Assembly: GCA_017651785.1 (NCBI GenBank) | Contig: JAGCCD010000216.1 | Coordinates: forward strand, 1 to 15,761 | Length of the DNA stretch: 15,761 nucleotides | Origin: Bacteroidales bacterium | GTDB lineage: Bacteria; Bacteroidota; Bacteroidia; Bacteroidales; UBA932 | Direction: 5' to 3' | In this document: positions 1 through 15,445 of the stretch, piece by piece | Layout: every line of letters starts with the position of its first letter | How positions within the stretch are numbered: position 1 is the stretch's first letter | Notes under the pieces: generated by a model | Told to the model about the DNA's origin: nothing | Seen by the model: the letters and a program-made list of their open reading frames with translations, nothing else | Database searches by the model: none | Made by a program: the position numbers and the translations under genes

Positions 1-969
1 GCTGCAGGTCAGCCCAACCCCAACGCATTCGAGGATTACGCCCGCGCCACTTCGGTGCCCGCCAATCCAGAGATCATACTTGCGTTCAAGTTCGACGATA
101 CCGGCGGCTGGGATGCTCTCGTGAACTTTATGAACTGCTCTGCATATCAGGGCAACAACCGTTACGATACCGACTGCAGCGGCGTTCTCACCAATCATCT
201 CGAGAACTACTGGGCAGCCGACGGCAGCGAGATATCATGGCCCAAGGTTGGCGACACAGCTCCCCGCAGCGGCTCCGACTGGATTGCCAACGTTGCCAAG
301 ATCGAGCCCCGTGCACTTGCAGACATCAAGTTCGGCGGACACGACTCGGCCAACAACCCCGGCGACTACTACTGGCAGAACATTGGCTGGAACCGTGGCG
401 GCTATTCGGCCGACAAGGACAAAGGCGATGTTTTTCCCAACGCCATCGATGAGAACAAAGGTTGCGGTGAGCGCACCAAGTTCTATTGGCACGCCGGCAG
501 CCGCACCTGGTTCGAACCGCCGCTGTTCCGCCTTGCAGAGACCTACCTCTATCTTGCAGAGGCATACAACGAGTACGGCAACGCTTCCAAGGCTCTGGAG
601 AACCTGAACAAGGTTCACAACCGCGCCGGCCTTCCCTCCATCACGGAGACTGACCAGGCCAAACTCCGCGCAATCATCCAGCGTGAGTGCGCAGTAGAGC
701 TTTTCCAGGAGGGCGGACACCGCTACTACGACGTAAAGCACTGGAAGAGAGCCGATATTGGCAACGGCCTTTGCGGCGGTCCCATGCGCATGCTCCAGTT
801 CAACATCCAAAACACCGATGAGGCCACCTGGCCTTATGCGGCAAAATGGGTAGAGACCTACTGGGATGCAGTGGCATACAACGCCTTCTGGACCGACGCC
901 ATGTTCCTGGAGCCTTTCCCTCAGACAGAGGTGAACAAGGGAACCATCACCCAGAATCCCGGTTATTGA
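1..969 (+). CDS. SusD-like starch-binding outer-membrane lipoprotein, C-terminal part (5' truncated by window)
   Basis: SusD-family proteins are surface lipoproteins that cap a SusC transporter and bind glycan before import. The frame is open from base 1, giving 322 visible residues; full SusD proteins usually have about 500-650, so roughly the N-terminal 40% (lipobox and first TPR helices) lies upstream. Visible hallmarks are the helical signature FRLAETYLYLAEAYNEYG (around bases 525-578), a following TPR-like segment (ASKALENLNKVHNRAGLP), the ECAVELFQEGGHRYYDVKHW block typical of the SusD C-terminal half, and the ending TQNPGY, which closes most SusD proteins. The stop is 18 bases before the SusC-like gene, so they are probably cotranscribed. 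Its own SusC partner may be upstream, which would make this a tandem SusC/SusD locus. The family call is firm; the glycan bound cannot be read from sequence. Confidence 0.93.
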   Translation, partial: AAGQPNPNAFEDYARATSVPANPEIILAFKFDDTGGWDALVNFMNCSAYQGNNRYDTDCSGVLTNHLENYWAADGSEISWPKVGDTAPRSGSDWIANVAKIEPRALADIKFGGHDSANNPGDYYWQNIGWNRGGYSADKDKGDVFPNAIDENKGCGERTKFYWHAGSRTWFEPPLFRLAETYLYLAEAYNEYGNASKALENLNKVHNRAGLPSITETDQAKLRAIIQRECAVELFQEGGHRYYDVKHWKRADIGNGLCGGPMRMLQFNIQNTDEATWPYAAKWVETYWDAVAYNAFWTDAMFLEPFPQTEVNKGTITQNPGY

Positions 970-987
970 TCGTAAACACTCGTAACT

Positions 988-3768
988 ATGACACATCCTA
1001 TTACAAGATATCTGGTCACCGTGGGAGCGGCGCTCCTGCTGAGTGTGACTCTTCTTGCCCAGGACTATGGCACCGGCGCGGTTTCCACCGCAACCGGCGA
1101 CGATCTCTACACCACCGTAACTGCCAACCTTTCCAACACGTTCGTGGGACAGTTCCCGGGAATGACGGTGCTCCAGGGCTCCGGGGAAATGGGTAACAAC
1201 AACGCCCGCTGGCTCATCCGCGGCATTGGAAGCTACGGTGTGGGATCCTGGTCCAAGGCAAAGCTCTTCGTTGACGGATTCGAGGTGAACGCCGACTACA
1301 TGACCGGCATTTCGCCTGCGGAAATAGAAAAGGTGGAGGTCCTCAAGGACGCGGCCGCCCTGGCGCTTTACGGCGAGAGGGGAGCCAACGGCGTCATAAG
1401 CATCACCACCAGGAGAGGAACCGAGGGTGCCGCCACCATCAACGCCCGCGTGCGTTACGGCGTGCAGACTCCCCAGAGCCTTCTCAAGCCCCTGGGCTCC
1501 TACGAATTCGCAAGTCTCTACAATCAGGCAGTATCCAACGACAACGGCATGAACTGGGCTCCCGCTTACACTGCGGCCCAGCTTGACGCCTACAAGAACG
1601 GCACCGGCGTGAACGTAGACTGGTACGACCAGGCTATGCGCAAGGCCGGCTCCTTCGTGGACGCTGACGTAATCCTGAACGGCGGTTCCAAAGACGCCCG
1701 CTACAACATCAACCTCGACTATCTGGGCAACCAGGGCCTTCTGAACGCAAAGAATACGGACGTCACCCGCAACCTGGGTTACAACCGTTTCAACCTCAGG
1801 GCAAACCTGGATTTCAACGTTCTCAAGATATTCGAGGTGCGCCTTGACATAGGCGGCCGTATCGAGCTGCTGGACCGTCCCAACTACGGCATCTCCTCGC
1901 TCTTCACCGACCTGCAGAAATATCCGTCCAACATCTACAACGTGTTTGACGACGAGGCCGGCGAGAATTACAGCGGTACTCCGGTATATCCCAACAACCC
2001 CTATGCATCCGTGAACGGCCTTGGCTGGTATTCCTACAAGGGACGCAGCCTGCAGACCAACCTCGCGGTGAAGGAGCGCCTGGATATGATCACTCCCGGT
2101 CTGTACCTCGAGGAAGCGATATCCTTCTACAGCTACACCATCAGCACCTGGTCCAAGACCCGCGACTACGCCCGCTGGTTCGGCGGAAACACCACCACGA
2201 CCAACCAGACCACGACCATCACCGCCAGCGGCTACGGCTCCGGCGGAATGCAGGACTGGAAGCAGGGCCGCGTAACGGCCGGCTACAACCGGGATTTCGA
2301 GGACCATCACCTGGACGCAAAGCTCAATTTCGGCGTTTCCGCATACAAGGGTGACGGATACTTCTCCTATAAGTACAATACGCTCAACCTGAACGGACTG
2401 CTCCATTACGATTACGCGCATCGCTACATCGTTGAGGCGGCCTTCTCCGAGTACGGCAACGACGCCTTCGCTCCCGGTCACCGCTGGGGCTTCTATCCTT
2501 CGCTCTCCGCGGCGTGGGTGCTCTCCAACGAGGATTTCCTCAAGGGAAAGGTTGACTTCCTGAAGCTGCGCGCCTCGGCGGGCCTTTCCGGATTCTCAGA
2601 TTCCGGCGCCACCTCGGTGCTCTCCGGCTACAATTCAAACGGCCGCTTCCTCTTCAAGGATTACTATACCACCAGCTACATCGGCTCGTTCTACACCGGC
2701 GCCACCAGCGGTGCCTGGCAGAGCACTCTGGTGCCCATGTTCACTCCCAACGAGGACGTGCACGCAGAGAAGAGCCTCAAGTTAAACGCTGGCGTAGACC
2801 TGCGCCAGGGAGGATTCAGCCTGACCCTGGACGGTTTCGTAGACAAGCGTTCCGACATCCTCACACTCGACAATTCGCTCCTCGGCTACTACGGCAAGCA
2901 GTACTCTTTCGCCAATGTGGGCAAGATGACAAGCTGGGGCGGCGAGCTGGCACTGGGCTACCAGGGCAAGGCCGGTGATTTCGGCTATGCCTTCGACGGC
3001 AGCGTCTCGTACGTCACCAACAGGATCGACTATATGGCAGAAGTGGCTCCCGCAAACGCTTTCAGCGCGCAGACCGGCAGGCCTTACGGAACCTACATCG
3101 GACTTGTGGCCGACGGTTTCTACGACACTTCCGACTTTGACGCCGCAGGCAACCTCCTGCCCACTCTTCCCACTCCCGCGTTCGGCAACGTCCAGCCAGG
3201 CGACATCAAGTATCTTGACCTGGACAAGAGCGGAGTGGTAGACCAGAACGACGTCACCAAGATTGGCCGCAGCTGGGTGCCCGAGTGGTACTTCACCCTG
3301 GGCGCAAAGTTCTGCTGGAAGGGCTTCGACCTCTCCGCGGAATTCCAGGGCGTGGCCGGCGTGTCCGCAAACCTGCTGAGCAACTGGAACCAGACCGTGG
3401 CATTCGTAGACAACGGCAACGTGTATCCCATCGCCAGTAACGCCTGGGCCTACTATCCCACCGAGGGCATAGATACAAGGGCTACGGCAACGTATCCCCG
3501 CCTTACCACCAACAGCAACGAGAACAACTACCGTCTGAGCTCCTTCTGGGTGAAAGACGCATCCTTCCTGAAGCTGCGCAACCTCGAACTCGGATACTCC
3601 TTCGCAATCAAGGATTCAAGGGTAAGCGCCCTTCGCTGCTTCGTGAACGGCCAGAACCTGTTTACGGTAAGCCCCATCCTGAGCGAATACGGTATGGATC
3701 CCGAGAACCTGTCCGGCCTCTATCCGGCCCTCAGGACATTCAACGCAGGACTTTCAATAACCTTCTAA
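988..3768 (+). CDS. SusC-like TonB-dependent outer-membrane glycan transporter, short form without N-terminal carboxypeptidase-like domain
   Basis: This 926-residue protein is a TonB-dependent beta-barrel that imports oligosaccharides across the outer membrane with its SusD lid. A signal peptide covers residues 1-24 (hydrophobic core AALLLSVTLLA, likely cleavage before QDYG). The plug follows at about 26-146, with FVGQFPGMTVLQGSGEMG, WLIRGIGSYG, FVDGFEV, IEKVEVLKDAAALALYGERG and ANGVISITTRRG, all in SusC order. The barrel fills the rest. Near residues 739-757 is the SusC-typical acidic loop (DIKYLDLDKSGVVDQNDV), and the protein ends in phenylalanine as outer-membrane barrels do. Most SusC proteins carry an 80-90 residue carboxypeptidase-regulatory-like domain between signal and plug; here the plug begins directly, so this is a short form. 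It lies between two SusD genes and is 12 bases before the complete one, its likely partner. Confidence 0.95.
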   Translation: MTHPITRYLVTVGAALLLSVTLLAQDYGTGAVSTATGDDLYTTVTANLSNTFVGQFPGMTVLQGSGEMGNNNARWLIRGIGSYGVGSWSKAKLFVDGFEVNADYMTGISPAEIEKVEVLKDAAALALYGERGANGVISITTRRGTEGAATINARVRYGVQTPQSLLKPLGSYEFASLYNQAVSNDNGMNWAPAYTAAQLDAYKNGTGVNVDWYDQAMRKAGSFVDADVILNGGSKDARYNINLDYLGNQGLLNAKNTDVTRNLGYNRFNLRANLDFNVLKIFEVRLDIGGRIELLDRPNYGISSLFTDLQKYPSNIYNVFDDEAGENYSGTPVYPNNPYASVNGLGWYSYKGRSLQTNLAVKERLDMITPGLYLEEAISFYSYTISTWSKTRDYARWFGGNTTTTNQTTTITASGYGSGGMQDWKQGRVTAGYNRDFEDHHLDAKLNFGVSAYKGDGYFSYKYNTLNLNGLLHYDYAHRYIVEAAFSEYGNDAFAPGHRWGFYPSLSAAWVLSNEDFLKGKVDFLKLRASAGLSGFSDSGATSVLSGYNSNGRFLFKDYYTTSYIGSFYTGATSGAWQSTLVPMFTPNEDVHAEKSLKLNAGVDLRQGGFSLTLDGFVDKRSDILTLDNSLLGYYGKQYSFANVGKMTSWGGELALGYQGKAGDFGYAFDGSVSYVTNRIDYMAEVAPANAFSAQTGRPYGTYIGLVADGFYDTSDFDAAGNLLPTLPTPAFGNVQPGDIKYLDLDKSGVVDQNDVTKIGRSWVPEWYFTLGAKFCWKGFDLSAEFQGVAGVSANLLSNWNQTVAFVDNGNVYPIASNAWAYYPTEGIDTRATATYPRLTTNSNENNYRLSSFWVKDASFLKLRNLELGYSFAIKDSRVSALRCFVNGQNLFTVSPILSEYGMDPENLSGLYPALRTFNAGLSITF

Positions 3769-3780
3769 CGGCAAGTGATT

Positions 3781-5442
3781 ATGAAAGCTAAATATATTAT
3801 CCTGACGCTTTGTGCAGCCACTCTGAGCCTGAGTTCCTGCAATGATTTCCTGGACACCAGCCTGGACCTTAACAATACCTCCGAGACAGTGGCGACCAGC
3901 AGAAGCTCCATCTGGGCTTTCGCCAACGCCTTCTATTCTCCGGTTATCAACGGTTACAGCGTCATAGACGGCAATCTGTTCGCTTCGGCTTCCGACGAGG
4001 CGCAGCAGACATCGGCGTCCTCAAACGTCATCTATTTCAACAAGGGTATAGTCAACCCCAGCGTAAACCCGCTCTGGACATACTATAACAACTGCTACGA
4101 GGGCATCCGCGCCGCCAACTTCTTCCTGGACTATGTGTCCGACGGAAAGGGGGTCGAGCTTCTCCAGAAGGGCCGCAACCTGGTTACGGACGCAGTAAAC
4201 TACGCCCGCGACCTCGCCTCCCTGGACTGGTACATCGCAGAGGCCCACGTGGCACGCGCGTACTACTACAGCGAGCTCATCAAGATGTACGGCGGAGTTC
4301 CCATCGTAGAGAAGACCATGGATCAGAACGGCGGTGAAAAGATCGCCCGCAGTACCTACGACCAGTGCGTAGAGTACATCGTGAGCGAGATCGACACCTG
4401 GAAAGACCGTCTGTCTCCCAACTGGAAAGACAACAACAACTACGAGGGCCGTTTCACCCTGGGCGCCGCTCTGGCAATCAAGGCGCGCACGCTCCTGTAT
4501 GCCGCTTCTCCTCTGCACAACCCTACCGGAGACTGGGAGAAATGGAACCGCGCTGCGCAGGCTGCGGCAGACGTAATCGCCCTGGGATCTTATTCCCTTG
4601 ACGGCGACTACGGTGCATACTTCCGCGGAAACGCTTCGCTTATCAGTCCCGAGACCATTTACGTGGTGCGCAGGGCCGTATCCAACACCATGGAGGTGAA
4701 CAACTATCCCATAGCTACCTCCGGCGGCAAGAGCGGAGTCTGTCCCACGCATAACCTTGTGAGCGTGTACGAATACGTCGATACGCCCAATCCCGACGAT
4801 CCTTACGCAAACAGGGATCCACGTCTGGACGCATCCATCGTGGTGAACGGCAGCACCTGGAACGGCCGCGTGATAGCGCAGGCACCGGGGGAGAGCGACG
4901 ATATGAAAGCCGCAAACGCCTCACGCACAGGCTATTACCTCAAGAAGTTCCTTACCGACGACCTTAACCTCACGCAGGGTGCGACAGCCCAGCACAACTG
5001 GGTCGCCTACAGGTACGCCGAAGTGCTTCTCAACTACGCCGAGGCAATGAACGAGGCCTACGGTCCTTCCGTCACTCCCGCCGGATTCCCCATGAGCGCA
5101 AAACAGGCCCTCCAGGCAGTGCGCGACAGGGCGAGCAGCAACCTTCCCGCGGTAGAGGCCGGAACCGTAGACTCCTTCCGTGCTGCCGTTAAGCATGAGC
5201 GCCAGGTGGAACTTGCCTTTGAGGATCACCGCTACTGGGATCTCATCCGTTGGAACGACGCAATGACCGTACTCAACAAGCCCGTGCAGGGCGTGAAGGT
5301 CGCCCGTTCCGGCAGCGGATACAAATACACCGTGGCAGATGTTGCAGACCGCGTATTCAACGTCCGCAACAACTACCTTCCTTTCATGCGTTCAGAGATC
5401 GAGAATTCAGGGGGAACCCTGGAGCAGAACCCCGGTTACTAG
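3781..5442 (+). CDS. SusD-like outer-membrane glycan-binding lipoprotein
   Basis: Complete 553-residue SusD-family surface lipoprotein, expected to form the lid on the SusC-like barrel encoded just upstream. I chose the ATG at 3781 over the GTG at 3775 because it gives a clean lipoprotein signal (MKAKYIILTL... then LSSC with acylated Cys20). The mature protein begins CNDFLDTS, a very common SusD opening. RagB/SusD hallmarks include the N-terminal helix block AHVARAYYYSELIKMYGGVP, the NYAEAMNEAYG helix (residues 418-428), ERQVELAFEDHRYWDLIRW (473-491) and the terminal EQNPGY. Acidic residues soon after the lipidated cysteine agree with surface export. The stop lies 3 bases before the next gene, indicating cotranscription with the glycosidase. 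The ligand is not predictable from sequence; the operon context suggests a beta-mannan or glucomannan fragment. Confidence 0.95.
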   Translation: MKAKYIILTLCAATLSLSSCNDFLDTSLDLNNTSETVATSRSSIWAFANAFYSPVINGYSVIDGNLFASASDEAQQTSASSNVIYFNKGIVNPSVNPLWTYYNNCYEGIRAANFFLDYVSDGKGVELLQKGRNLVTDAVNYARDLASLDWYIAEAHVARAYYYSELIKMYGGVPIVEKTMDQNGGEKIARSTYDQCVEYIVSEIDTWKDRLSPNWKDNNNYEGRFTLGAALAIKARTLLYAASPLHNPTGDWEKWNRAAQAAADVIALGSYSLDGDYGAYFRGNASLISPETIYVVRRAVSNTMEVNNYPIATSGGKSGVCPTHNLVSVYEYVDTPNPDDPYANRDPRLDASIVVNGSTWNGRVIAQAPGESDDMKAANASRTGYYLKKFLTDDLNLTQGATAQHNWVAYRYAEVLLNYAEAMNEAYGPSVTPAGFPMSAKQALQAVRDRASSNLPAVEAGTVDSFRAAVKHERQVELAFEDHRYWDLIRWNDAMTVLNKPVQGVKVARSGSGYKYTVADVADRVFNVRNNYLPFMRSEIENSGGTLEQNPGY

Positions 5443-5445
5443 CGT

Positions 5446-7062
5446 ATGAAACGCCTGATCACTACGCTTTTAGCAGTCTGTGCAGCCGTTCTTGCGACTG
5501 CACAGACACTGAGCGTGAGCGGGCCCGGGAGCGTGAAGCTTTACGGCCGTGCAGACTTCAGCATAACCACGCCCTCCGTTCCTTCCAACCCTTATCTGCA
5601 GGAAGAAGCGGCGCTTGACATGCTTCTTACCGCCCCCTCCGGCAAGCAGCTCGTTCTGCCTTGCTACTGGACGGGCAGCGGCAACGCGTGGGCGGCGCGC
5701 TTCACTCCCCAGGAGAAGGGCAGGTACACGTATGTGTTCCGCTACAGAGAGGCCGGAAAACCTGAAGTCACAAGCGCGCAAGGCACAATCCGCACCTGCG
5801 GAAAGAATGGCCGCGGCCTGCTCCATACCAATGACGACTGGACCCTGCGCTTCGACGACGGCACCCCCTACAGGGGCGTCGGAGAAAACATCTGCTGGGA
5901 GTCCAGGACGAGCGACGACAGCAAGTTCTTCCGCGAGCTCCATGAGAAGTGGGACCGCTACAACTACGACGTGCTCCTGCCCGATTTCGCTGCAGCAGGC
6001 GGCAACTTCGTGAGGATGTGGATGTGCTCCTGGAACTTCCCCATAGACAGGCACGACCGCTTCAACAACCGCCGCTACACCCCGTCCGACGAGTACTACA
6101 ATCCCAGCGCCGTTGAGCGTCTGGACCACACTGTGGACCTGGCAGAGAAGCTTGGCATCAACATAATGCTCTGCATGGGCCCCGGCGACGTGCGCACGGA
6201 CGCGTCTTTCTTCACCTCCGACGAGGCTAAGGCCCGCTACCGCAACCGCCTGCGCTACATAGTGGCGCGCTGGGGTTACAGCCCGGCCATAGGCATGTGG
6301 GAGTTCTTCAACGAGATAGACAATATCCAGTTCCGCAACGCCCAGTCGCCCATTCCCGCGCGGGACATAACCGCCTGGCACGGGCAGATGTCAACCTACC
6401 TCAAGGCCCTTGACCCGTTCGACCATATCGTCACCACTTCCATTTCGCACCGCGACGTGGAGGGGATGAACGACCTGCCCGACCTGGACATCAACCAGAA
6501 GCACATCTACCGCGCAACGTCCTCCATTCCGCGCACCATCAAAGAATACGAGAAGCGTCACGGCAAGCCTTACATCATAGGCGAGTTCAGCTTCGAGTGG
6601 GACTGGTCCAAGAACTTCGACGACTTTGCGGAGGATATGGACATAGACTTCAAGCGGGGCCTGTGGTACGGAATCTTCTCGCCCACGCCCGTAACTCCTA
6701 TGAGCTGGTGGTGGGAATACTTCGATAACCGCAATATGGTGCCTTATTTCAAGGGCGTACGCAAAGTGAGCGACCTTATGCTGGCAAGCGGAAAGGGCTC
6801 TTTTGAGCCGATTGAGGCCAAGGCCGGCGGTGCGGAAGCCTTTGCAGTCCGCTGCGGAAACCGTATATTTGCATACGTGTTCAATCCCGGTTCCGAGTCC
6901 GTGAGCGCCGTAAGCATCCCGCTCTCCGGCAGGTACAAGGTGCGTCCGTTCGATTTCGCCTCCGCCGCTTTCGGCAAGGCGCAGTCAATCGTGGCAGACG
7001 GTTCCCTTGAAATCCCGCTGTCGCTCGGTTCCAAAGAAGAGGCATTATTTGAAATAAAGTGA
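5446..7062 (+). CDS. Exported glycoside hydrolase, DUF5060 domain + clan GH-A (GH5-like) (beta/alpha)8 barrel
   Basis: This 538-residue secreted enzyme probably cleaves a beta-glycosidic bond with retention. A signal peptide (about residues 1-20, ending ATAQ) has no lipobox, so the protein is likely periplasmic. Residues about 24-100 resemble DUF5060, a beta-sandwich preceding GH-A barrels (NPYLQEEAALDMLLTAPSG, then FTPQEKGRYTYVF). The barrel runs about 115-440: FVRMWMCSWN (188-197, with the clan's conserved Arg190), WEFFNEIDN with candidate acid/base Glu290, KHIY (352-355) on a later strand, IIGEF with candidate nucleophile Glu380, and MSWWWEY (419-425) at the strand 8 position. The last ~90 residues look like a small beta-sandwich. 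The Glu290/Glu380 pair is the usual GH-A arrangement. I cannot assign a GH5 subfamily; it does not look like classical GH26. Its neighbours suggest a manno- or gluco-configured substrate. It lies 3 bases after susD and 1 base before the GH30 gene. Confidence 0.85.
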   Translation: MKRLITTLLAVCAAVLATAQTLSVSGPGSVKLYGRADFSITTPSVPSNPYLQEEAALDMLLTAPSGKQLVLPCYWTGSGNAWAARFTPQEKGRYTYVFRYREAGKPEVTSAQGTIRTCGKNGRGLLHTNDDWTLRFDDGTPYRGVGENICWESRTSDDSKFFRELHEKWDRYNYDVLLPDFAAAGGNFVRMWMCSWNFPIDRHDRFNNRRYTPSDEYYNPSAVERLDHTVDLAEKLGINIMLCMGPGDVRTDASFFTSDEAKARYRNRLRYIVARWGYSPAIGMWEFFNEIDNIQFRNAQSPIPARDITAWHGQMSTYLKALDPFDHIVTTSISHRDVEGMNDLPDLDINQKHIYRATSSIPRTIKEYEKRHGKPYIIGEFSFEWDWSKNFDDFAEDMDIDFKRGLWYGIFSPTPVTPMSWWWEYFDNRNMVPYFKGVRKVSDLMLASGKGSFEPIEAKAGGAEAFAVRCGNRIFAYVFNPGSESVSAVSIPLSGRYKVRPFDFASAAFGKAQSIVADGSLEIPLSLGSKEEALFEIK

Positions 7063-7063
7063 T

Positions 7064-8530
7064 ATGAAACGGATTCTCTGTATACTCCTCCTTGCAGCCG
7101 CGGGCTTTGCAGCCTTCGGCCAAAGGACGCTGCATCAGTGGGTTACCACATCGGAAGGCGACAGGCTCATGGATGAGGGCAAGACGGTGGAATTTCAGGA
7201 TGCTCTCCCCGGAGGCGGCGTCCCCATAATAGTGGACGAACGCCAGTCGTACCAGGAGATGCTCGGATTCGGTTTCTCGCTCACCGGCGGAAGCGCCGAG
7301 CTGCTGATGAAGATGACCCCCGCCGCAAGGCACGCCATCCTGGAAGAGCTGTTCGCCCCGGACCGTATGAATATCAGCGTTCTGCGTCTCACCGTGGGAG
7401 CCTCCGACATGAATTCCTTCGTGTTCTCGTACGACGACATGCCCGAGGGCAAGGAAGACTTCATGCTCAAGAAGTTCTCGCTGGCCCAGGACCTCAAGGA
7501 TGTGGTCCCGGTGATGAAGGAGATACTGGCCTTCAACCCCAAAGTATGGGTGATGGCCTCTCCCTGGTCCGCTCCCGCATGGATGAAGGAAAGCCGTGAC
7601 GTACGCGGAGGCAAACTGCGCCGCGAGTGTTATCCGGTGTATGCCGCATACCTTGCCAAGTACATCCTGGCAATGCGCGACAAAGGCATAACCATTCACG
7701 CCCTCACCATCCAGAACGAGCCTCTCAACTCACGCAATACGCCCTCCATGCCCTGGTCGCCGGAAGACCAGAAGGTCTTCGTACGCGACTATCTGGGGCC
7801 CGAGTTCACCCGCACCGGCATAACCACGGATATCCTTGCGTTCGACCACAACTGCGACCGCCCGGACTATCCCATGGCCATAATAGAAGACCCCGCGGCT
7901 GCCAAATACATTGGCGGAACGGCTTTCCACCATTATGCGGGAGACCTTTCCGTAATGACCCAGGTGCACGACTTCCGTCCCGACAAAGACATCTACTTCA
8001 CCGAGCAGATGGTCGTAGACCGCAGAGGCACCGTAACATCAAGGATAGCCCCGTCCGTGAAGCGTATGCTCATAGACATACCCCGTAACTGGAGCCGAAA
8101 CGTCATCCTGTGGAACCTCGCCGCAGATCCTGAGGCAAAGCCCCATACGGACAACGGCGGATGCCCCTTCTGCTTTGGCGCCATAACCCTGGACGGAGAC
8201 ACCGTAACACGCAACCTGGCGTACTGGGTGGTGGCCCACGCCTCTGGCAAGGTCCCTGCCGGATCTTATCGCATCCATTCCACGGAGAGGTCTGAGCCCG
8301 CGTCCCTGCTTATAGACGACGAGCAGAACCCGGGCGTGCGGCGTTTCATCTCCTACACGCATTCGGGCGTTCCCTCCAACGTGGCGTTCCGCACTCCGGA
8401 CGGCCGCATCGTGCTCATAGTGGCCAATGAATCCGCCTTCGGAAGCAACTTCAGCATACAGTACCACGGGCAGACCGCAAGGGTTTTCCTGCCCTCCGGA
8501 GCCGTGGGCACTTATTCCTGGCCGATATAA
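7064..8530 (+). CDS. Exported GH30-family glycoside hydrolase
   Basis: A 488-residue GH30 enzyme (clan GH-A), a family including glucosylceramidases, beta-1,6-glucanases, xylanases and beta-glycosidases. The signal peptide (residues 1-19, AAFG before QRTL) lacks a lipobox, so the enzyme is probably periplasmic. Family motifs are in order: YQEMLGFGFSLTGGSAELL at the start of the barrel, ISVLRLTVGASDM, VMASPWSAPAWMK, the acid/base strand TIQNEPLN with Glu219, a HHYAG strand, and YFTEQM with nucleophile Glu314. The 95-residue distance between the two glutamates fits GH30. The last ~90 residues form the usual GH30 beta-sandwich partner domain. The nucleophile is followed by Gln-Met rather than the Trp/Cys-Ser found in many GH30 proteins, which may mark the subfamily. 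Linkage specificity is unknown; context points to removal of beta-glucosyl or beta-mannosyl units from imported oligosaccharides. Confidence 0.92.
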   Translation: MKRILCILLLAAAGFAAFGQRTLHQWVTTSEGDRLMDEGKTVEFQDALPGGGVPIIVDERQSYQEMLGFGFSLTGGSAELLMKMTPAARHAILEELFAPDRMNISVLRLTVGASDMNSFVFSYDDMPEGKEDFMLKKFSLAQDLKDVVPVMKEILAFNPKVWVMASPWSAPAWMKESRDVRGGKLRRECYPVYAAYLAKYILAMRDKGITIHALTIQNEPLNSRNTPSMPWSPEDQKVFVRDYLGPEFTRTGITTDILAFDHNCDRPDYPMAIIEDPAAAKYIGGTAFHHYAGDLSVMTQVHDFRPDKDIYFTEQMVVDRRGTVTSRIAPSVKRMLIDIPRNWSRNVILWNLAADPEAKPHTDNGGCPFCFGAITLDGDTVTRNLAYWVVAHASGKVPAGSYRIHSTERSEPASLLIDDEQNPGVRRFISYTHSGVPSNVAFRTPDGRIVLIVANESAFGSNFSIQYHGQTARVFLPSGAVGTYSWPI

Positions 8531-8548
8531 AACAAAAAGTAACACAAT

Positions 8549-10513
8549 ATGAAAAAGACATTGATTCTATTGCTTTCTGCGCTGGTGGCGTTGGGTACCG
8601 TCTCCTGTGGCGATGCCATAGAAATCCCCGACGTCCCCACTCCCGAGAAACCGGACGAGCCTTCAACTCCCGACGGCATCTCCGGCGACGTGGTTTTCAC
8701 CGCCACCGTGGAGTCCCTTCAGGACGGCACCCAGCCCGGTTGGGAGAAGGGCGCAAAGATACTTCTGTCCGACGGCAGTTCCACCCAGACCCTCACCAAC
8801 AGCGCCGAGGCCGGTGTGACCGCCAAATTCCCTGCAAAGGTGGCAGCCGGAGCCAAGGGTTTCGTCGCCGTTGCCCCGGCGTCGTCGGGCGCCTCGATAA
8901 GCGGCACAACCGTTAGCGTAGACCTGCCCGCCACCCGTGAGATAGGCGCCGACATGCCCAATCTGCTGGTGGCCAAGGCAAGCGGCACCCAGCTCTATTT
9001 CAAGACTCTGCTCGCCCAGCTCAGCTTTACGGTCTCCATTGACGGAGCCACCAAGGTGGTGCTCAAGACCGCCGGGGGAGAGAAGATAGGGGGCAAGCTG
9101 GAGGTCGATTATTCCGGCGAGCAGCCCGTCATCACCGCCCAGTCTGACGAAATAACCGTCACCGGCAGCTTCGAGAACGGCAAGACCTATACGGTCCCCG
9201 TCGTTCCCGGCCAGATAAGCGGCTACAGCGTTGTGGTTTACGCCGGCGACCAGGAAAAGGCCCATATTACCGGCGAGGGCGCAACCCTCGTTCCCGGCCT
9301 GCCCGCAGAACTCCCCGCATTCACCGCAGACATCCCTACCTACCAGATTGCTAAGGTGCAGATCTGGGGAGGAACCGGCCCCGAGTACAACTGCTCAAAG
9401 GTCTACAACCTCTTCAATAAGGCAGGCTGCTTCAACGACGAGGACGGCCGCGGCATACTTGCCCTGCAGGACAACTACTTCCTGCTCAAGGAAGACGGCA
9501 CCTATGTGAACTACGCCGGTGAGGACGGACGCAACTGGTGGTTCGTCTACAGCGGCTCGCAGAATCCCGAGAACGGCAAGGACGTAGACCTGCGTTCCAT
9601 GTTCGAGCTCCTGCCCCTCGGCGAAGCCACATACACCATAGACGGCGCCAACATCAGCTTCACCCATCCCGACGGCAAGGTCACTACTGCCACCTTCATG
9701 GAACCCGGCACTTATCCTATGCCCGGCACTGTACCGGAGATAAGCGTTACTCTCGAGAAGCAGACGCTTATGTTCCAGATCAAGGGCGGAAAAGACAACT
9801 GGAACTTCCCTTGGCAGGACTACGGCGTAATCGCATGCAGGCCCAGGGCCCTCTTCGTAGAGATTGAAAAGATGCCCGACGGCTTCGTGGTTCCCGAGGC
9901 TTCCCGCACATTCGACACCGAGTTCGAGTACATTCCTCCGGTGGAGCCCGACGACCTGTTCAACTGGGACGAGTTCGCCGCGCACTGGAACGTGTTAGGC
10001 GGCAACAGCGCTCCCTTCGGCATCTGGGTGCTGGGTGGCTCAGGCGACGATCCCGCGTTCGTGAGCCCCATAGACAAGAGCTGGGACTGGGACGACTCCA
10101 TCTGGAAAGAGTCCGACAACGGCCTGGTAGTCAAAGTGTCTTCCAAGACCGACACGGAGATCAAGGGTACCACCAACTGGTGGTCCGGAGATGACGGCGG
10201 CTTCTGGAACTACACCTGGAAGTCTACCGGAGAAGACCTGTCCAAGTTCTACGACAAGATTCCCAAGGGCGAGAAGGAGTTCACCCTCGACCTCACCACC
10301 CTCACCATGACGCTTGCCAACGGCGAAAAGGCAAAGTTCCTCACTCCGGGCACGCACGAGTTCGTGTACGGCAAGACCATCGAGGTCCGTGAGGGCTGCT
10401 TCGGCCTGGCGTTCCACAATATGGATCCCATAGATGCCACCAGCAGCCGCTGGACAGACGTCGACCGCTTTGTTTACGCTCCGCTTGAATACGTAATACT
10501 GTTCGAGAAGTAA
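8549..10513 (+). CDS. Surface lipoprotein with fimbrillin-like domain and two tandem diverged C-terminal domains; probable glycan-binding protein
   Basis: A 654-residue lipoprotein with lipobox TVSC (acylated Cys20), then a Pro/Asp/Glu-rich linker to about residue 45. Residues about 46-257 resemble fimbrillin-family domains: alternating beta strands, a GWEKGAKILL segment, DLPATREIGADMPNLLVAKA and FKTLLAQLSFTVS. Residues about 266-445 and 467-654 are two mutually similar aromatic-rich domains (see repeat entries). No catalytic motif was found. Proteins of this layout in PULs usually act as surface glycan-binding proteins beside SusD (SusE/SusF position), and the many tryptophans (330, 331, 418, 422, 493, 512, 514, 519, 544, 545, 553, 557) could stack on sugars. 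It sits between the exported glycosidases and the cytoplasmic module, 18 bases after GH30, and its stop overlaps the GH130 start. The family of the C-terminal domains is not recognised; the binding role is inferred. Confidence 0.8.
   Translation: MKKTLILLLSALVALGTVSCGDAIEIPDVPTPEKPDEPSTPDGISGDVVFTATVESLQDGTQPGWEKGAKILLSDGSSTQTLTNSAEAGVTAKFPAKVAAGAKGFVAVAPASSGASISGTTVSVDLPATREIGADMPNLLVAKASGTQLYFKTLLAQLSFTVSIDGATKVVLKTAGGEKIGGKLEVDYSGEQPVITAQSDEITVTGSFENGKTYTVPVVPGQISGYSVVVYAGDQEKAHITGEGATLVPGLPAELPAFTADIPTYQIAKVQIWGGTGPEYNCSKVYNLFNKAGCFNDEDGRGILALQDNYFLLKEDGTYVNYAGEDGRNWWFVYSGSQNPENGKDVDLRSMFELLPLGEATYTIDGANISFTHPDGKVTTATFMEPGTYPMPGTVPEISVTLEKQTLMFQIKGGKDNWNFPWQDYGVIACRPRALFVEIEKMPDGFVVPEASRTFDTEFEYIPPVEPDDLFNWDEFAAHWNVLGGNSAPFGIWVLGGSGDDPAFVSPIDKSWDWDDSIWKESDNGLVVKVSSKTDTEIKGTTNWWSGDDGGFWNYTWKSTGEDLSKFYDKIPKGEKEFTLDLTTLTMTLANGEKAKFLTPGTHEFVYGKTIEVREGCFGLAFHNMDPIDATSSRWTDVDRFVYAPLEYVILFEK
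8681..9319 (+). other. Fimbrillin-like domain inside the lipoprotein
   Basis: Residues about 45-257 of the 654-residue lipoprotein read like the N-terminal domain of Bacteroidales fimbrillin/Mfa-type proteins: an opening VVFTATVES strand, W65 before an LLSDG turn, a lipoprotein-proximal beta-rich stretch with VAPASSG, then the LPATREIGADMP and LYFKTLLAQLSFTV blocks and a late VPVVPGQISG turn. Boundaries are by eye. In a PUL protein this domain more likely acts as a spacer or scaffold than as a pilus subunit. Confidence 0.6.
9344..9883 (+). repeat. Protein-level tandem domain, copy 1
   Basis: Residues about 266-445 of the lipoprotein. Matches copy 2 in order: VQIWGGTG, a D/N-rich region leading to NWWFVYSG, LRSMFELLPLGEATYTID, then ISFTHPDGKVTTATFMEPGTY and VPEISVTLEKQTLMFQI. 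Divergence is high and seen at protein level only, so the duplication is old. Boundaries are by eye. Confidence 0.65.
9947..10510 (+). repeat. Protein-level tandem domain, copy 2
   Basis: Residues about 467-654 of the lipoprotein. Counterparts to copy 1: IWVLGGSG, a Trp/Asp-rich region leading to GGFWNYTWKS, LSKFYDKIPKGEKEFTLD, then LTMTLANGEKAKFLTPGTH and KTIEVREGCFGLAFHN. This copy has more tryptophans than copy 1 (for example SWDWDDSIW at 511-519 and NWW at 543-545), which suggests the two have diverged in binding surface. Confidence 0.65.
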
Positions 10514-11676
10514 TGGAATTTGAAGAAAGACTTGCGTGGCTCCGCGCGAGCCACGCGGCCTTGCTCTCCAAGGTAAACGCGCCGCTGGAGGGGAACGGTG
10601 TCTATGAGCGCTGGGCAAATCCTGTGCTCACGGCCGCCCACGCCCCTCTGGAGTGGCGTTACGACCTGGACCCCAAGACCAATCCGCACCTGATGGAAAG
10701 GTTCGGCATACACGCCACTTTCAATTCGGGAGCAATCAAATGGCAGGGCAGGTACCTGCTGTGCGTAAGGGTTGAAGGTGCCGACCGCAAGTCCTTCTTC
10801 GCAATGGCAGAGAGCCCCAACGGAGTGGACAATTTCCGGTTCTGGCCGCGTCCCGTAACGATGCCCGAGTTCGGCGAACCGGCAACCAACGTATACGACA
10901 TGCGCCTCGTGGCACACGAGGACGGATGGATATACGGAACCTTCTGCGTAGAGCGCAAGGATCCCGACGCCGAGCCGCATAACCTTTCCGCAGCGGTGGC
11001 CTGCTGCGGCATTGCGCGTACCCGCGACTTCGTTTCCTGGGAGCGTCTGCCCGACCTGAAGTCCGACTCCCAGCAGCGCAACGTGGTTCTGCACCCCGAG
11101 TTCGTGAACGGCAAATATGCCCTCTACACGCGGCCCCAGGACGGCTTCATAGACGCTGGAGCGGGCGGCGGCATAGGCTGGACTCTCGTAGACAGTATGG
11201 AAGACGCCGTGGTTGAAAAGGAGACTATACTCAACCGCCGCCACTACCATACCATCAAGGAGTGCAAGAACGGGGAAGGCCCCGCGCCCATAAAGACGCC
11301 CAAGGGCTGGCTGCATCTGGCACACGGAGTAAGGGCTTGCGCATCCGGGTTGAGGTACGTGCTGTATATGTATATGACGGCCCTAGCCGATCCCTCTCAC
11401 GTAATCGCCGAGCCTGCGGGATTCTTCATGGCACCCCAGGGCGACGAGTTCGTGGGCGACGTGATGAACGTCCTGTTCTCCAACGGATGGATCGCAGAGC
11501 CCGACGGCCGCGTACTCATCTACTACTCCAGCTGCGACTCGGACGTCCGCGTAGCCACCTCCACCGTAGACCGGCTTGTAGACTACTGCCTCAACACGGC
11601 CCCCGACGGATACCGCACCGGACTTAGCGTAGAGACTCTCAACCGCTTGATAGACAAGAACGATGGCAAAGCTTAG
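10513..11676 (+). CDS. GH130 4-O-beta-D-mannosyl-D-glucose phosphorylase (GH130_1 type)
   Basis: This 387-residue cytoplasmic enzyme has no signal peptide. It should split beta-1,4-mannosyl-glucose with phosphate into alpha-mannose-1-phosphate and glucose, the last step of the intracellular mannobiose pathway. It closely resembles the characterised Bacteroides fragilis enzyme as I recall it: VLTAAHAPLEWRYDL near the start, RVEGADRKSFFAMAESPNG (86-104), NVYDMRLVAHEDGWIYG with proposed general acid Asp129 (Asp131 in the B. fragilis enzyme), SQQRNVVLHPEF (186-197), TRPQDGFID, YHTIKECKNGEGPAP, LHLAHGVR, and FSNGWIAEPDGRVLIYYSS late on. The length of about 390 and the GADRKSFFA motif favour GH130_1 over the shorter GH130_2 mannooligosaccharide phosphorylases. 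Its ATG overlaps the upstream stop by one base (TAATG), and it overlaps the transporter by 14 bases, suggesting translational coupling. Specificity is inferred from close similarity. Confidence 0.93.
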   Translation: MEFEERLAWLRASHAALLSKVNAPLEGNGVYERWANPVLTAAHAPLEWRYDLDPKTNPHLMERFGIHATFNSGAIKWQGRYLLCVRVEGADRKSFFAMAESPNGVDNFRFWPRPVTMPEFGEPATNVYDMRLVAHEDGWIYGTFCVERKDPDAEPHNLSAAVACCGIARTRDFVSWERLPDLKSDSQQRNVVLHPEFVNGKYALYTRPQDGFIDAGAGGGIGWTLVDSMEDAVVEKETILNRRHYHTIKECKNGEGPAPIKTPKGWLHLAHGVRACASGLRYVLYMYMTALADPSHVIAEPAGFFMAPQGDEFVGDVMNVLFSNGWIAEPDGRVLIYYSSCDSDVRVATSTVDRLVDYCLNTAPDGYRTGLSVETLNRLIDKNDGKA

Positions 11677-13054
11677 CGAAAAGATAGGATACGGTTTCGG
11701 GGATATGTCTTCCTCTATGTTCTGGAAGATATTCTCCTACTACCTTCCCATTTTTTATTCGGACGTATTCGGCCTTAAGCCCGCGCACGCCGCAACGCTG
11801 CTGCTGGTTACCAAGATCTACGACGCGGTATCTGACCCGGTGATGGGCCTCATTGCGGACCGCACCCAGACCAGGTGGGGAAAATACCGTCCCTACCTGC
11901 TCTGGATGGCGATTCCGTTTGCCATCATCGGCATCCTGTCGTTCTACGTACCCAATACCACTTACACGCTCAAGCATGTGTATGCCTACGTGATGTATAT
12001 CCTGATGATGACCGTATACACCGCCGTCAACGTGCCGTATGGCGCCATGCTCGGCGTGGTAACCGCAGACTCAAAGGAGAAGTCGGTGTTCTCGTCGTTC
12101 AGGATGTTCTTCGCATACATAGGCAGCTTCATCGCGATGGGCATTTTCTGGCTCTTCGAGAAGTCTGTCATAGGCACTCAGAACGCATCCGGCGTAACTG
12201 TAAAGGGTGTAGGCGACGCGGATCCTGCAAAGTGGACTATGGTAGTAGCAATCATTGCCGCAATGTGCGCGGTGCTGTTCATAGCCTCGTTCCTTCTCAC
12301 TCGCGAGCACGTGAAGCCGGAGCGCAAGGAGTCCGGTTCGTCCATCAGGGAAGACCTGAAGGCGCTGCTTGGAAACGCCCCCTGGTGGCTGCTTCTAGGC
12401 GCGGCGATAGGCCAGCTGCTGTTCAATTCAATAAGGGGCGGCGCTGCGGCCTACTACTTCGCCAACATACTGGGCACCGATATCTTCATCACCTGCGCCG
12501 TATTCCTCACCATAGGCGAGATAGGGCAGATGGCCGGCGTAACCCTGGCCGTGCCTCTCTCCGAGCGCATAGGCAAGAAGAACTCGTTCATGCTCAGCCT
12601 CGCCACCGTTGCGGTACTGAGCTGCATAATATGGTTCCTGCCCGCCACCGCCGGCGGAGTATGGACACTGCTTGTGCTGCAGGTACTTATCAGCGTCATT
12701 TTCGGCATCTCCGCGCCACTGGTGTGGTCTATGTTCGCCGACGTAGCCGACTACTCCGAACTGCGCACAGGCTCCAATTCCACCGGCCTCATCTTCTCGT
12801 CGTCAAGCATGGCGCAGAAGTTTGGCGGTGCCATTGGCGGTTTCCTGTTGCTTATGATCCTCGGAGCCTTCGGCTACGACAAAGACCTTGTGCAGCAGGC
12901 GCCCCAGACCCTCGGAGCCATCAAGGCCCTTATGAGTTTCATACCGGCCGCCGGCGCCGCTCTGGGCCTGCTTGCGCTGTCGTTCTATCCTCTCACTTCA
13001 TCACGTATGAAGCAGATACAGGCCGAGCTGAAAGAACGCCGTAATGCAGAGTGA
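11663..13054 (+). CDS. GPH-family (MFS superfamily) sugar:cation symporter, probable mannobiose/disaccharide importer
   Basis: A 463-residue inner-membrane transporter with 12 hydrophobic segments recognisable by eye and a hydrophilic loop in the middle (about residues 212-235). The glycoside-pentoside-hexuronide signature is clear: YDAVSDPVMGLIADRTQT (53-70; Asp58 is in the position of the cation-binding aspartate on helix 2 of MelB), followed by RWGKYRPYLLW. In the second half, VWSMFADVADYSELRTGSNS is the other typical GPH motif. Position between the GH130 phosphorylase and the epimerase, overlapping both genes (14 and 11 bases), makes uptake of the disaccharide they process, mannobiose or a glucose-mannose disaccharide, the natural role. 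GPH family is firm; the substrate is inferred from context. Confidence 0.92.
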   Translation: MAKLSEKIGYGFGDMSSSMFWKIFSYYLPIFYSDVFGLKPAHAATLLLVTKIYDAVSDPVMGLIADRTQTRWGKYRPYLLWMAIPFAIIGILSFYVPNTTYTLKHVYAYVMYILMMTVYTAVNVPYGAMLGVVTADSKEKSVFSSFRMFFAYIGSFIAMGIFWLFEKSVIGTQNASGVTVKGVGDADPAKWTMVVAIIAAMCAVLFIASFLLTREHVKPERKESGSSIREDLKALLGNAPWWLLLGAAIGQLLFNSIRGGAAAYYFANILGTDIFITCAVFLTIGEIGQMAGVTLAVPLSERIGKKNSFMLSLATVAVLSCIIWFLPATAGGVWTLLVLQVLISVIFGISAPLVWSMFADVADYSELRTGSNSTGLIFSSSSMAQKFGGAIGGFLLLMILGAFGYDKDLVQQAPQTLGAIKALMSFIPAAGAALGLLALSFYPLTSSRMKQIQAELKERRNAE

Positions 13055-14225
13055 ACTGACTGAATTCCTGCGGGATGCCGCATCCCGCGAACTGGAAGGG
13101 GATATCCTTCCATACTGGCTTAAGCTGAGGGACCCGCATGGCGGGTTCTTCGGCGAGGCCGATTCCAGGGGACGCCTTAATCCCGCGGCCGAAAGGGGAG
13201 CCGTGCTTGGCGCGCGCCTTGTCTGGACCTTTTCTGCGGCATATAACGCCCTCGGCAAGCCCGAGTACCTGGAAGCTGCAAAATGGGCGTGCGACTATTT
13301 CCTGGAGCATTTTGTAGATTCCGCGAATGGCGGAGTGTACTGGAGCGTGACGGCAGACGGCTCGCCGCTGGATACAAAGAAGCAGCTCTACTCTCAGGGC
13401 TTTGCGATATACGGCCTTGCCGAGTACTACAGGGCAAGCGGAGACAATGACGCCCTGAATGCCGCCAAGTCACTGTTTGCCGTGGTTGAGGAGCATTTTT
13501 ACGACCGCGCACACGGCGGCTACCTTGAGGCCCTGGCACGCGATTTTTCGCCCCTCGAGGACATGTCCCTCAGCGCCCACGACATCAATGCGGACAAGAC
13601 CATGAACTCCCACCTCCACCTTCTGGAGGCCTATGCGAACCTGTATACTGTGTGGCCGGACAAGGCTCTCGGCGCCCGCGTGAGGGAGCTTCTGGACCTT
13701 GTATGCGGCACGATCATGCACCCTTCCGGGCATCTTCAGCTGTATTTTACAAGTGACTGGGAAGTGCTTCCCGGCGCCTGGTCTTACGGGCACGACATAG
13801 AGACCAGCTGGCTTGCGCTCGAGTGTGCCGACGCCCTTGGAGACCCTGCCCTGGTTGAGCGCGTAAAGGAATTCTCCCGCCGCCTTGCAGCTGCCGGTAA
13901 TGAGGGCCTGCAAATGGACGGGTCAATGATTTACGAACTGCATCCGGACGGCAGGGAAGACCGCTTCCGCGAGTGGTGGGTGCAGGCTGAGGCAGTGGTG
14001 GGCAACATCTGGGCGTGTAAACGCCTGGGCGATGCTGACGGCCTTTCCCGGGCCGCCTCCACCTGGAACTACATAAGCGCCAATCTGCTGGATAAAGAGA
14101 ACGGAGAATGGTTCTGGGGCATAAACGAGGAAGGCACTCCCGACCTCACCCGTCCCAAGGCCGGATTCTGGAAGTGCCCGTACCACAATTCACGTATGTG
14201 CCTGCAGATTCTTTCCTGCCTCTAG
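13044..14225 (+). CDS. Cellobiose 2-epimerase (AGE superfamily), converting mannobiose to mannosyl-glucose
   Basis: A 393-residue cytoplasmic (alpha/alpha)6-barrel enzyme of the N-acylglucosamine 2-epimerase superfamily. It should epimerise C2 of the reducing sugar of beta-1,4 disaccharides, turning mannobiose into mannosyl-glucose, the substrate of the GH130 enzyme. Active-site residues known from Ruminococcus albus cellobiose 2-epimerase all appear with a constant offset: Arg58 (ARLVWTFS; Arg52 there), the NSHLHLLEAY histidines (190/192), His250 (SYGHDIETSWL; His243), Trp311-Trp312 and Glu316 (EWWVQAEAVVG; Trp303, Trp304, Glu308) and His381 (PYHNSRMCLQ; His374). Length matches the family (about 390-410). 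The neighbouring GH130_1 gene makes the cellobiose 2-epimerase branch much likelier than N-acetylglucosamine or mannose epimerases. The start overlaps the transporter by 11 bases, and the stop shares a CTAG with the convergent esterase stop. Confidence 0.93.
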   Translation: MQSELTEFLRDAASRELEGDILPYWLKLRDPHGGFFGEADSRGRLNPAAERGAVLGARLVWTFSAAYNALGKPEYLEAAKWACDYFLEHFVDSANGGVYWSVTADGSPLDTKKQLYSQGFAIYGLAEYYRASGDNDALNAAKSLFAVVEEHFYDRAHGGYLEALARDFSPLEDMSLSAHDINADKTMNSHLHLLEAYANLYTVWPDKALGARVRELLDLVCGTIMHPSGHLQLYFTSDWEVLPGAWSYGHDIETSWLALECADALGDPALVERVKEFSRRLAAAGNEGLQMDGSMIYELHPDGREDRFREWWVQAEAVVGNIWACKRLGDADGLSRAASTWNYISANLLDKENGEWFWGINEEGTPDLTRPKAGFWKCPYHNSRMCLQILSCL

Positions 14226-15445
14226 TCTATCCCCAGCACCTTCTTGAAGAATTCCACCCTAATAGGGGGCCAGACCGGCTCCAGCCACATCGCGTGCCCG
14301 CAGGTTGGGACGCACAGGTAGTGCTTTTCTGCGGAGCCCAGGTTGTTGTAGATTGAGAAGTTGGTGTGGGGCGGACAGGTCTGGTCCTGAAGCCCGAAAG
14401 CCATATAGACGGGGCAGGTGATGCACGGCGCAAAATTCTTTATGTCGAAGTAAGACAGCACTTTATAAAAGTCTTCAGTGGCTATGCCCTGAGCTGCTGC
14501 AGCATCCAGCCCTTCGTGAACCGGCCACCAGACAATCTTTGCGTAGTCCGGATAATCCCCAAGGAAAGGCACTGCCGGAGCTGCGGCCTTTATGCGTTTG
14601 TCTATAGCAGCGGCAACCATTGTGAATGCGCCTCCCTGGCTTTCGCCCTGAGCCACGATCTTTTCAGTATCGGCCTTCTCAAGCGAGCAGGCGAAGTCTA
14701 TGGCGCGCTGCACATCGGCAAAGGCGCCGCGGTAGTAGTAGGTCTCCTTGGACTCAAGACCGCGGTCGAACCAATTGGCCTGTGGCTCCTTGAAGAGGCC
14801 CTGGCCGCGGACACTCACAAGGAAGTTTATCACGTCCGGAGCGGCCTGGGGATCGAAATAATACACGTTTGCGCCATATCCCATATACTCCAGGATCACG
14901 GGGTACTTGCCCGGGGCGTTGGGGATGGAAACTATACCTCCTGCCGTTGCTCCGCCCCAGGAAGTGTATTGCACCTCGTAGCAGGTGCGTACGGAGTCAG
15001 AATACTCCGGGACCTCGGTAAATACGGCGTCCATCGGCATGGAACGCACTTCAGAGAGCGTCTTTTCCCAGAAAGAGTCGAAGTCCGGCAGGGCGTCCGT
15101 CGGGCTTGTCACTTCCTCGGGCCTTATGCCTATGTTGAACCTTATGCTGTCCGCTATCCTTGCCTCGTAGAAGCCGGGAGCGAGGCGGCCGAGCTTTACG
15201 GTGAGAAGGCTGTCCGGGCCTATTGTGACTTCTTTGGTAAGTACGGGCTCGGGAGCCTCTTCCATCAGCGTAAGGTCGCTGAAGAGCTGGAAGGTGGTAT
15301 TGCCCGTGGTCTTTACTTTAGTGGAAAGCTTTACGTTGCCTTTGGACGTGAACAGCCAGCCAAGGTCGGGTTGTGAAGAGCCTGTTGAGGGAGCGGCGGT
15401 GCATCCGGCCACAAGCAGGAGCAGGGGGAGGAATAATTTGCGCAT
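14222..15445 (-). CDS. CE7-type acetyl (xylan) esterase lipoprotein with N-terminal beta domain
   Basis: A 407-residue alpha/beta-hydrolase of the AXE1/CE7 type, which removes acetyl groups from oligosaccharides. I chose the start at 15445 (ATG on the minus strand) because it opens a lipoprotein signal MRKLFLPLLLLVAGC (Cys15); the longer frame to 15559 adds 38 residues with no signal and crosses the divergent neighbour's start. Residues about 20-110 form an extra beta-rich N-terminal domain. CE7 motifs follow: LEYMGYGANVYY, the RGQ motif (213-215), GESQGG with nucleophile Ser269, GLQDQTCPP with Asp354, and CGHAMW with His384. CE7 usually has His-Glu at the last site; here it is His-Ala. The residues after Cys15 (TAAPSTGSS) lack the acidic surface-export signal, so it may face the periplasm. 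It is convergent with the epimerase. Acetylated mannan is the likely substrate from context. Confidence 0.88.
   Translation of the reverse strand: MRKLFLPLLLLVAGCTAAPSTGSSQPDLGWLFTSKGNVKLSTKVKTTGNTTFQLFSDLTLMEEAPEPVLTKEVTIGPDSLLTVKLGRLAPGFYEARIADSIRFNIGIRPEEVTSPTDALPDFDSFWEKTLSEVRSMPMDAVFTEVPEYSDSVRTCYEVQYTSWGGATAGGIVSIPNAPGKYPVILEYMGYGANVYYFDPQAAPDVINFLVSVRGQGLFKEPQANWFDRGLESKETYYYRGAFADVQRAIDFACSLEKADTEKIVAQGESQGGAFTMVAAAIDKRIKAAAPAVPFLGDYPDYAKIVWWPVHEGLDAAAAQGIATEDFYKVLSYFDIKNFAPCITCPVYMAFGLQDQTCPPHTNFSIYNNLGSAEKHYLCVPTCGHAMWLEPVWPPIRVEFFKKVLGID

Follow-up and report, generated by a model that had tools for sequence, protein, structure and literature searches.

The contig JAGCCD010000216.1 (C266 of genome G000), a stretch of 15,761 nucleotides from a Bacteroidales bacterium that is referred to here at its full length as the window, encodes an epimerase, a GH130_1 phosphorylase and a GPH-family symporter, preceded by a DUF5060/GH5-like enzyme and a GH30 enzyme. 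We consider it likely that an assembly break has cut a β-mannan polysaccharide utilization locus (PUL) in two and that the window holds its downstream half; the locus would work by the mechanism proposed below, and its substrate is probably acetylated gluco- or galactoglucomannan. The locus is read as a β-mannan PUL with a GH26 enzyme because the window dovetails with a second contig of the same genome, C79, and because seven relatives keep the order from GH26 to DUF5060 unbroken. An earlier note on this DNA had described a mannobiose pathway core linked to unusual exported enzymes, with no recognisable GH26, GH36 or GH2. With C79 taken into account, the gene set is half of a fairly ordinary plant β-mannan set.

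The upstream half of the locus on contig C79

The genome from which the window comes is 1.47 Mb in size, divided over 270 contigs and 66.7% complete, and the window is one entire contig. Its first base falls within a SusD gene, so that the window holds the 3' part of a SusD-like protein (1..969, plus strand; SusD_RagB 108 bits) and C79 the front half. The last 352 bases of C79 and the first 352 bases of the window are identical at 338 positions (96.0%), and this overlap spans exactly from the last base of C79 to the first base of the window. The 96% overlap points to an assembly split by strain variation and to a mixture of strains in the genome assembly.

The genes on C79 follow the order GH2 (with discoidin-like domains), AraC, lipoprotein, GH26 lipoprotein, SusC with a CarboxypepD_reg domain, and the 5' half of SusD. 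GH26, SusC and SusD are spaced by 12–14 bases, which is the spacing of one operon. The sole GH26 match in the genome sits on C79, and DUF5060 is likewise represented by one match. The best solved match of the GH26 protein is 4zxo (253 bits), which we take to be BoMan26A of Bacteroides ovatus; the glutamates of the HEHT and TE motifs, presumably catalytic in GH26, are aligned. The GH2 protein is closest to the exo-β-D-glucosaminidase 2vzo (199 bits), followed by GH2/β-mannosidase structures at no more than 135 bits.

Family searches of the proteins of the window itself found no GH26 and no GH2. Since the window is a whole contig that starts inside SusD, and C79 carries both genes, their absence is an artefact, and the earlier statement that the locus lacks them does not hold. 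The note had suggested looking upstream of base 1, and had counted a GH26 in the same operon, together with inactivity of both hydrolases on mannans or glucomannans, against its own proposal; the first of these two things was found, in the same gene cluster on C79. A Melibiase-family (GH36) search of the genome gave one weak match, on C168 (39.4 bits, cut-off 27). Given the contig overlap, C79 and the window together hold the clustered SusC/SusD, GH26, GH130_1 and epimerase genes of a β-mannan PUL. A further GH5 is encoded elsewhere in the genome (L121, G000:C46:1736-2638, 155 bits).

Gene order in related loci

The DUF5060 loci compared are the best 80 of 202, and the candidate scan scored 8000 candidates and covers the best 120 of 1465. 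Gene order in the relatives was read from tblastn matches, because longest-open-frame calling gave false antisense frames in GC-rich loci.

Orthologues of C79 and window genes lie in line on single contigs in six relatives (L012/L093, L014/L094, L016/L095, L019/L096, L011/L097 and L045/L098). The order in all six is lipoprotein, GH26, SusC, SusD, SusC, SusD, DUF5060, GH30 and a lipoprotein of the type found in the window, the last being absent from L045. The relatives are 62–72% identical to C79 in GH26 and 73–85% in SusC. Furthermore, a single SusD stretch in L012 aligns with the two parts of the interrupted gene, the one on C79 and the one in the window. The seventh relative, L007, belongs to the same genus and has GH26 through DUF5060 in order together with a distant GH2 (31% identity); no GH30 was found by tblastn of this locus.

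The GH2 gene is less fixed in position. Close relatives of the C79 protein (57–65% identity) are encoded downstream in L013–L016 and L041; L096 resembles the present locus in having the gene upstream. Another, distant GH2 (32%) precedes GH30 in L011 and L012.

Two loci encode composite proteins with a GH26 part between GH30 and GH130_1: a fusion of a CBM48-like domain, an esterase and GH26 in L046 (13203-15431), and a two-part protein with a C-terminal GH26 in L062 (16156-18468). The L046 record is labelled Anaerolineaceae (Chloroflexota), yet its SusC/SusD, DUF5060, GH30, GH130, GPH and epimerase genes form a locus of Bacteroidota type, and it is probably a misbinned contig.

Association of DUF5060 with GH26 and GH130_1

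Genome-wide searches covered 50 of the 80 loci, which were chosen by hand and are neither random nor independent. The neighbourhood counts use one best DUF5060 match per genome, 50 of the 51 matches in total; the one omitted is the second homologue that the genome of L074 carries, at 44% identity. In 44 of the 50 genomes a GH26 was found no more than 25 kb from DUF5060, where about 2.4 would be expected at random positions. All 43 low-identity (<40%) GH30 paralogues of the same genome set served as a control, and GH26 lay within 25 kb of one of them; the genomes being related and hand-picked, the significance of 44/50 against 1/43 is therefore overstated. GH30 of at least 49% identity was found within 25 kb of DUF5060 in 34 of the 50 genomes, and GH130_1 in 28.

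The lone GH30 paralogue near a GH26 sits about 7 kb from the second DUF5060 homologue in the genome of L074. If it bears on the GH26 association at all, it favours it, yet it blurs the control. This second homologue has a 1070-residue frame and lies beside a GH130_1 and a GH30 paralogue (G107:C18:149798-163270), on the same contig as the first DUF5060 locus but apart from it.

In a sample of 295 genomes of the order, DUF5060 was found in nine, GH130_1 in 58 and both in six. The hypergeometric probability of this co-occurrence is 0.0024 with the source genome included and 0.008 without it.

The DUF5060/GH5-like enzyme

The gene directly upstream of the GH30 gene (5446..7062, plus strand) encodes a DUF5060 domain (PF16586, 40.7 bits) joined to a GH5-like part of clan GH-A (PF00150, 28.9 bits). 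Residues R190, N289, E290, H353, Y355, E380 and W421 are identical in 84 of 84 DUF5060 proteins, comprising the window protein and those of 83 of 84 loci; the distant match L010, below the 300-bit limit, was left aside. This set of Arg, Asn-Glu, His, Tyr, Glu and Trp is what we take to be the catalytic signature of GH5 and clan GH-A, and as such it is present in the window protein.

A profile of 21 DUF5060 homologues was compared with solved structures and matched 12 sequences at E ≤ 1, namely two DUF5060 proteins, nine named β-mannanases and one GH158 protein. The top GH5 structures are β-mannanases, presumably of subfamily GH5_7, and these matches are weak (38 and 31 bits).

Nine DUF5060 structures have been deposited, under the entries 9gmj, 9gpa, 9gpc to 9gpg, 9hhj and 9him, indicating that others work on the family. 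The solved proteins 9gmj/9gpc resemble the window protein in having an N-terminal DUF5060 domain and a GH-A-like part, at weak similarity (128 bits). Their putative acid/base Glu aligns with the window protein; six entries have Gln at this position. By name, DUF5060 was found in the open-access literature only in a paper on Lactobacillus jensenii, unrelated by its title, and a search of that literature by entry code found no paper on the solved DUF5060 structures.

Both the DUF5060/GH5-like enzyme and the GH30 enzyme have signal peptides without a lipobox, as read by eye, which suggests that they are exported to the periplasm; judged from these features, the former is probably periplasmic, and so, probably, is the latter.

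The GH30 enzyme

Membership of the second enzyme (7064..8530, plus strand) in GH30 is indicated at family level by a match to the PF02055 barrel profile (118.5 bits) and by both catalytic glutamates being kept. E219 and E314 are identical in 55 of 55 GH30 proteins, 35 of which are encoded beside DUF5060 and 20 elsewhere. The latter were taken from the 46 matches that do not lie beside a best DUF5060 match, and comprise 17 of the 43 low-identity matches and all three of higher identity. In the resulting tree the 35 proteins beside DUF5060 and the three higher-identity ones form one branch with support of 100/100, apart from the 17 paralogues; the 35 are not a clade to the exclusion of those three.

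The nearest solved relative of the window protein is 5ngk, which we take to be BT3312. Against NF053856, the curated equivalog model for the endo-1,6-β-glucanase BT3312, the window protein scored 308 bits with a cut-off of 700, and the three other members of its branch that were tested were similarly below it (L012 313, L068 374 and L117 413 bits). All three paralogues tested (L102, L105 and L114) exceeded the cut-off, at 781–870 bits. An assignment of the window GH30 as a BT3312-type β-1,6-glucanase was accordingly rejected by the NCBI criterion. The window protein shares the family and the catalytic glutamate pair with the BT3312-type enzymes, but it sits on a separate branch of the tree and far below the curated cut-off.

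The mannobiose core

The GH130 protein (10513..11676, plus strand), predicted to be cytoplasmic, is assigned to GH130_1 as a 4-O-β-D-mannosyl-D-glucose phosphorylase. This reading holds because its best match, 3was (612 bits), is such an enzyme. The mannosylglucose phosphorylases 3was and 5ay9 (448 bits) score far above other GH130 types such as TM1225 (107 bits) and the mannooligosaccharide phosphorylase 5ayd (71 bits), so that sequence similarity favours the assignment made in the earlier note. D129 aligns with D131 of 3was, presumably the catalytic Asp of BfMGP. The next gene (11663..13054, plus strand) encodes a GPH-family sugar:cation symporter (MFS_2 331 bits; TIGR00792 354 bits, cut-off 231). 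It is followed by a cellobiose/mannobiose 2-epimerase of the GlcNAc-2-epimerase type (13044..14225, plus strand), which is nearer to the cellobiose 2-epimerase 3wkf (373 bits) than to the acylglucosamine-type 8h1k (143 bits); on NF041848 it reached 296 bits, below the cut-off of 800. These family matches support the mannobiose pathway core of epimerase, GH130_1 and GPH symporter.

Other features of the window

All genes between 988 and 14225 share one strand, and neighbours either overlap slightly or are separated by no more than 18 bases. The gene inventory and coordinates of the earlier note for this part (DUF5060/GH5-like, GH30, lipoprotein, GH130_1, GPH, epimerase) agree with Pfam and NCBIfam, except for the lipoprotein, which has no match.

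The interrupted SusD gene is followed by the second SusC-like TonB-dependent transporter of the locus (988..3768, plus strand; TIGR04056 570 bits) and a second SusD-like lipoprotein (3775..5442, plus strand; SusD_RagB, SusD-like_3). The sole Pfam match of the second SusC is Plug, from residue 29, meaning that the protein begins nearly at the plug; frames grouped with it have a median of 936 residues (39 loci). The tandem SusC pair may be functionally unequal, because the second SusC is without the CarboxypepD_reg domain and the first, on C79, has it.

Between GH30 and GH130_1 lies a gene for a lipoprotein of 654 residues (8549..10513, plus strand; lipobox VSC, read by eye). It had no Pfam or NCBIfam match, and the PDB search gave nothing convincing (best E 0.41). 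Its relatives, present in one or two copies in many DUF5060 loci, are 40–63% identical in the closer loci and 24–31% in the others. It is possible that this lipoprotein is a surface glycan-binding protein and a candidate for a new mannan-binding family.

Downstream of the epimerase, on the minus strand, is an AXE1/CE7-like acetyl esterase lipoprotein (14225..15445; PF05448 180 bits, cut-off 21), which was not named in the earlier note. Its probable start is the ATG at 15445, and the open frame extends to 15559. Among solved structures it matches acetyl xylan and cephalosporin C esterases at up to 124 bits. A scan of 14100-14400 found no promoter; its only terminator-like site, a weak one, is on the minus strand, with 0.3 expected. 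Divergent from the esterase, a further lipoprotein gene starts and runs out of the window (15510-15761; lipobox LLAC, read by eye); a Pfam search with this fragment, cut by the contig end, had no match.

Proposed function and alternative explanations

From the gene content, the gene order across the break, the conserved catalytic residues and the GH26 association we infer the locations, substrates and division of labour that follow. The GH26 lipoprotein would start the breakdown of β-mannan at the cell surface, and the two SusC/SusD pairs would import the oligosaccharides. In the periplasm these may be trimmed by the DUF5060/GH5-like enzyme, GH30 and GH2, the DUF5060/GH5-like enzyme most likely acting on β-mannosyl backbone linkages and GH30 more likely on glucosyl units, the bond being in both cases our proposal. 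The CE7-like esterase is predicted to take off acetyl groups. Disaccharides would be brought in by the GPH symporter, after which the epimerase would convert mannobiose to mannosyl-glucose, to be phosphorolysed by GH130_1.

The proposal of the earlier note, a β-mannan-processing role for the DUF5060 and GH30 enzymes, finds its support in genomic context, through the GH26 association, and among solved structures the DUF5060 profile favours β-mannanases. Its other part, a pathway free of GH26 and GH2 that needs these two enzymes as depolymerases, is not supported, GH26 and GH2 being present across the contig break. That the two enzymes are the primary depolymerases of a locus without GH26 and GH2, releasing mannobiose or mixed disaccharides, would agree with the lack of both genes within the window and with two enzymes that have intact catalytic residues and signal peptides by eye. 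We regard it as highly improbable, and a GH26-free locus was rejected, given that both genes lie on the dovetailing C79 and that in seven relatives GH26 likewise stands upstream, with the gene order unchanged. Should C79 and C266 instead represent two strains or two paralogous loci and not chromosomal neighbours, the 14 mismatches in 352 bases and the fragmented, 66.7% complete metagenome-assembled genome would be explained. The exactly end-to-end overlap, an order that matches the seven relatives and the single GH26 and DUF5060 matches in the whole genome make this distinctly unlikely.

It also seems rather unlikely that the locus is directed at a mixed or other glycan, such as β-1,6- or β-1,3-glucan or a mannosyl exopolysaccharide, with GH30 acting as a β-1,6-glucanase, DUF5060 on a non-mannan substrate, and GH26 and GH130_1 having a partial role. 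The best matches of GH30 are indeed 5ngk and the BT3312 endo-1,6-β-glucanase model, one structure matched by the DUF5060 profile is GH158, and the open-access literature searched gave no substrate for 9gmj, a solved DUF5060 protein. Against this stand the 308 of 700 bits of the window GH30 compared with 781–870 for the three paralogues tested, the separate branch of the 17 low-identity GH30 paralogues, and GH26 near DUF5060 in 44/50 genomes compared with 1/43 paralogues.

Several observations weigh against the reading as the downstream half of a β-mannan locus. The overlap is 96%, not 100%, in an incomplete genome, and C79 and C266 may therefore derive from co-assembled strains. GH26 was missing within 25 kb of DUF5060 in six of the 50 genomes; for L015, L022, L029, L057 and L065 a contig end is no more than about 10 kb away, the DUF5060 of L060 is on a 55 kb contig without GH26, and the genome-wide search gave no GH26 match at all in the genomes of L015 and L029. 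In 22 of the 50, the 25 kb around DUF5060 held no GH130_1, and 52 of the 58 GH130_1 genomes in the order sample had no DUF5060, which is therefore an optional partner of the pathway. The GH5-like score of the window protein is weak (cut-off 23.5 for PF00150). Moreover, one of the ten profile matches outside DUF5060 is GH158, and profiles of other clan GH-A families might also place mannanases first.

Significance and comparison with known systems

The DUF5060 and GH30 groups accompany GH26 in many rumen and gut Bacteroidota, and we found no published role for them in the open-access literature. We tentatively suggest that the DUF5060/GH-A clade could be an undescribed periplasmic β-mannan-active group with kinship to GH5_7, and that the GH30 clade could have an activity new to its family, such as the removal of glucosyl or mannosyl units from glucomanno-oligosaccharides, the two together being a widespread mannan module of Bacteroidota. 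β-Mannans are major plant fibres of feed and food, and assigning both enzyme groups would sharpen substrate prediction for many loci. Furthermore, the case shows how a standard locus can appear to miss a key enzyme because of a contig edge.

In the available text of the open-access literature searched, which leaves out subscription papers and preprints, no GH30 or DUF5060 is described in a β-mannan PUL. PUL32/BcMUL of Bacteroides cellulosilyticus shares SusC/SusD, GH26, GH130_1, an MFS transporter and CE7 with the present locus (PMC13357471, PMC13276840). It differs by GH5_7, GH5_2 and GH3 and by having its epimerase on a separate contig, and GH30 is absent from the main texts as available (PMC13357471, PMC13276840). 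The rumen mannan PUL of Prevotella sp. PREV32, likewise from a rumen member of the Bacteroidota, has SusCD, GH26, CE7, GH130, mannobiose 2-epimerase and GPH in common with it, but contains two GH5 enzymes, one assigned to subfamily 4 by the authors, and no GH30 is named in the portion of the text available (PMC6784887).

The glucomannan PUL 7/8 of Segatella copri shares GH26, CE7, GH130 and an adjacent epimerase, and differs in having GH26|GH5_4, GH5_4 and GH5_7, with neither GH30 nor DUF5060 in the main text as available (PMC12704710). According to the same source, GH26A of S. copri yields mostly dimers from mannan, CE7 deacetylates glucomannan, and EpiA is active on mannobiose, cellobiose and Man-Glc (PMC12704710). 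The same intracellular route, together with CE7, is reported for mannan PULs of Segatella and Prevotella (PMC12704710, PMC6784887). As in the mechanism proposed here, S. copri PUL 7/8 combines periplasmic cutting to small products with cytoplasmic epimerisation and phosphorolysis (PMC12704710).

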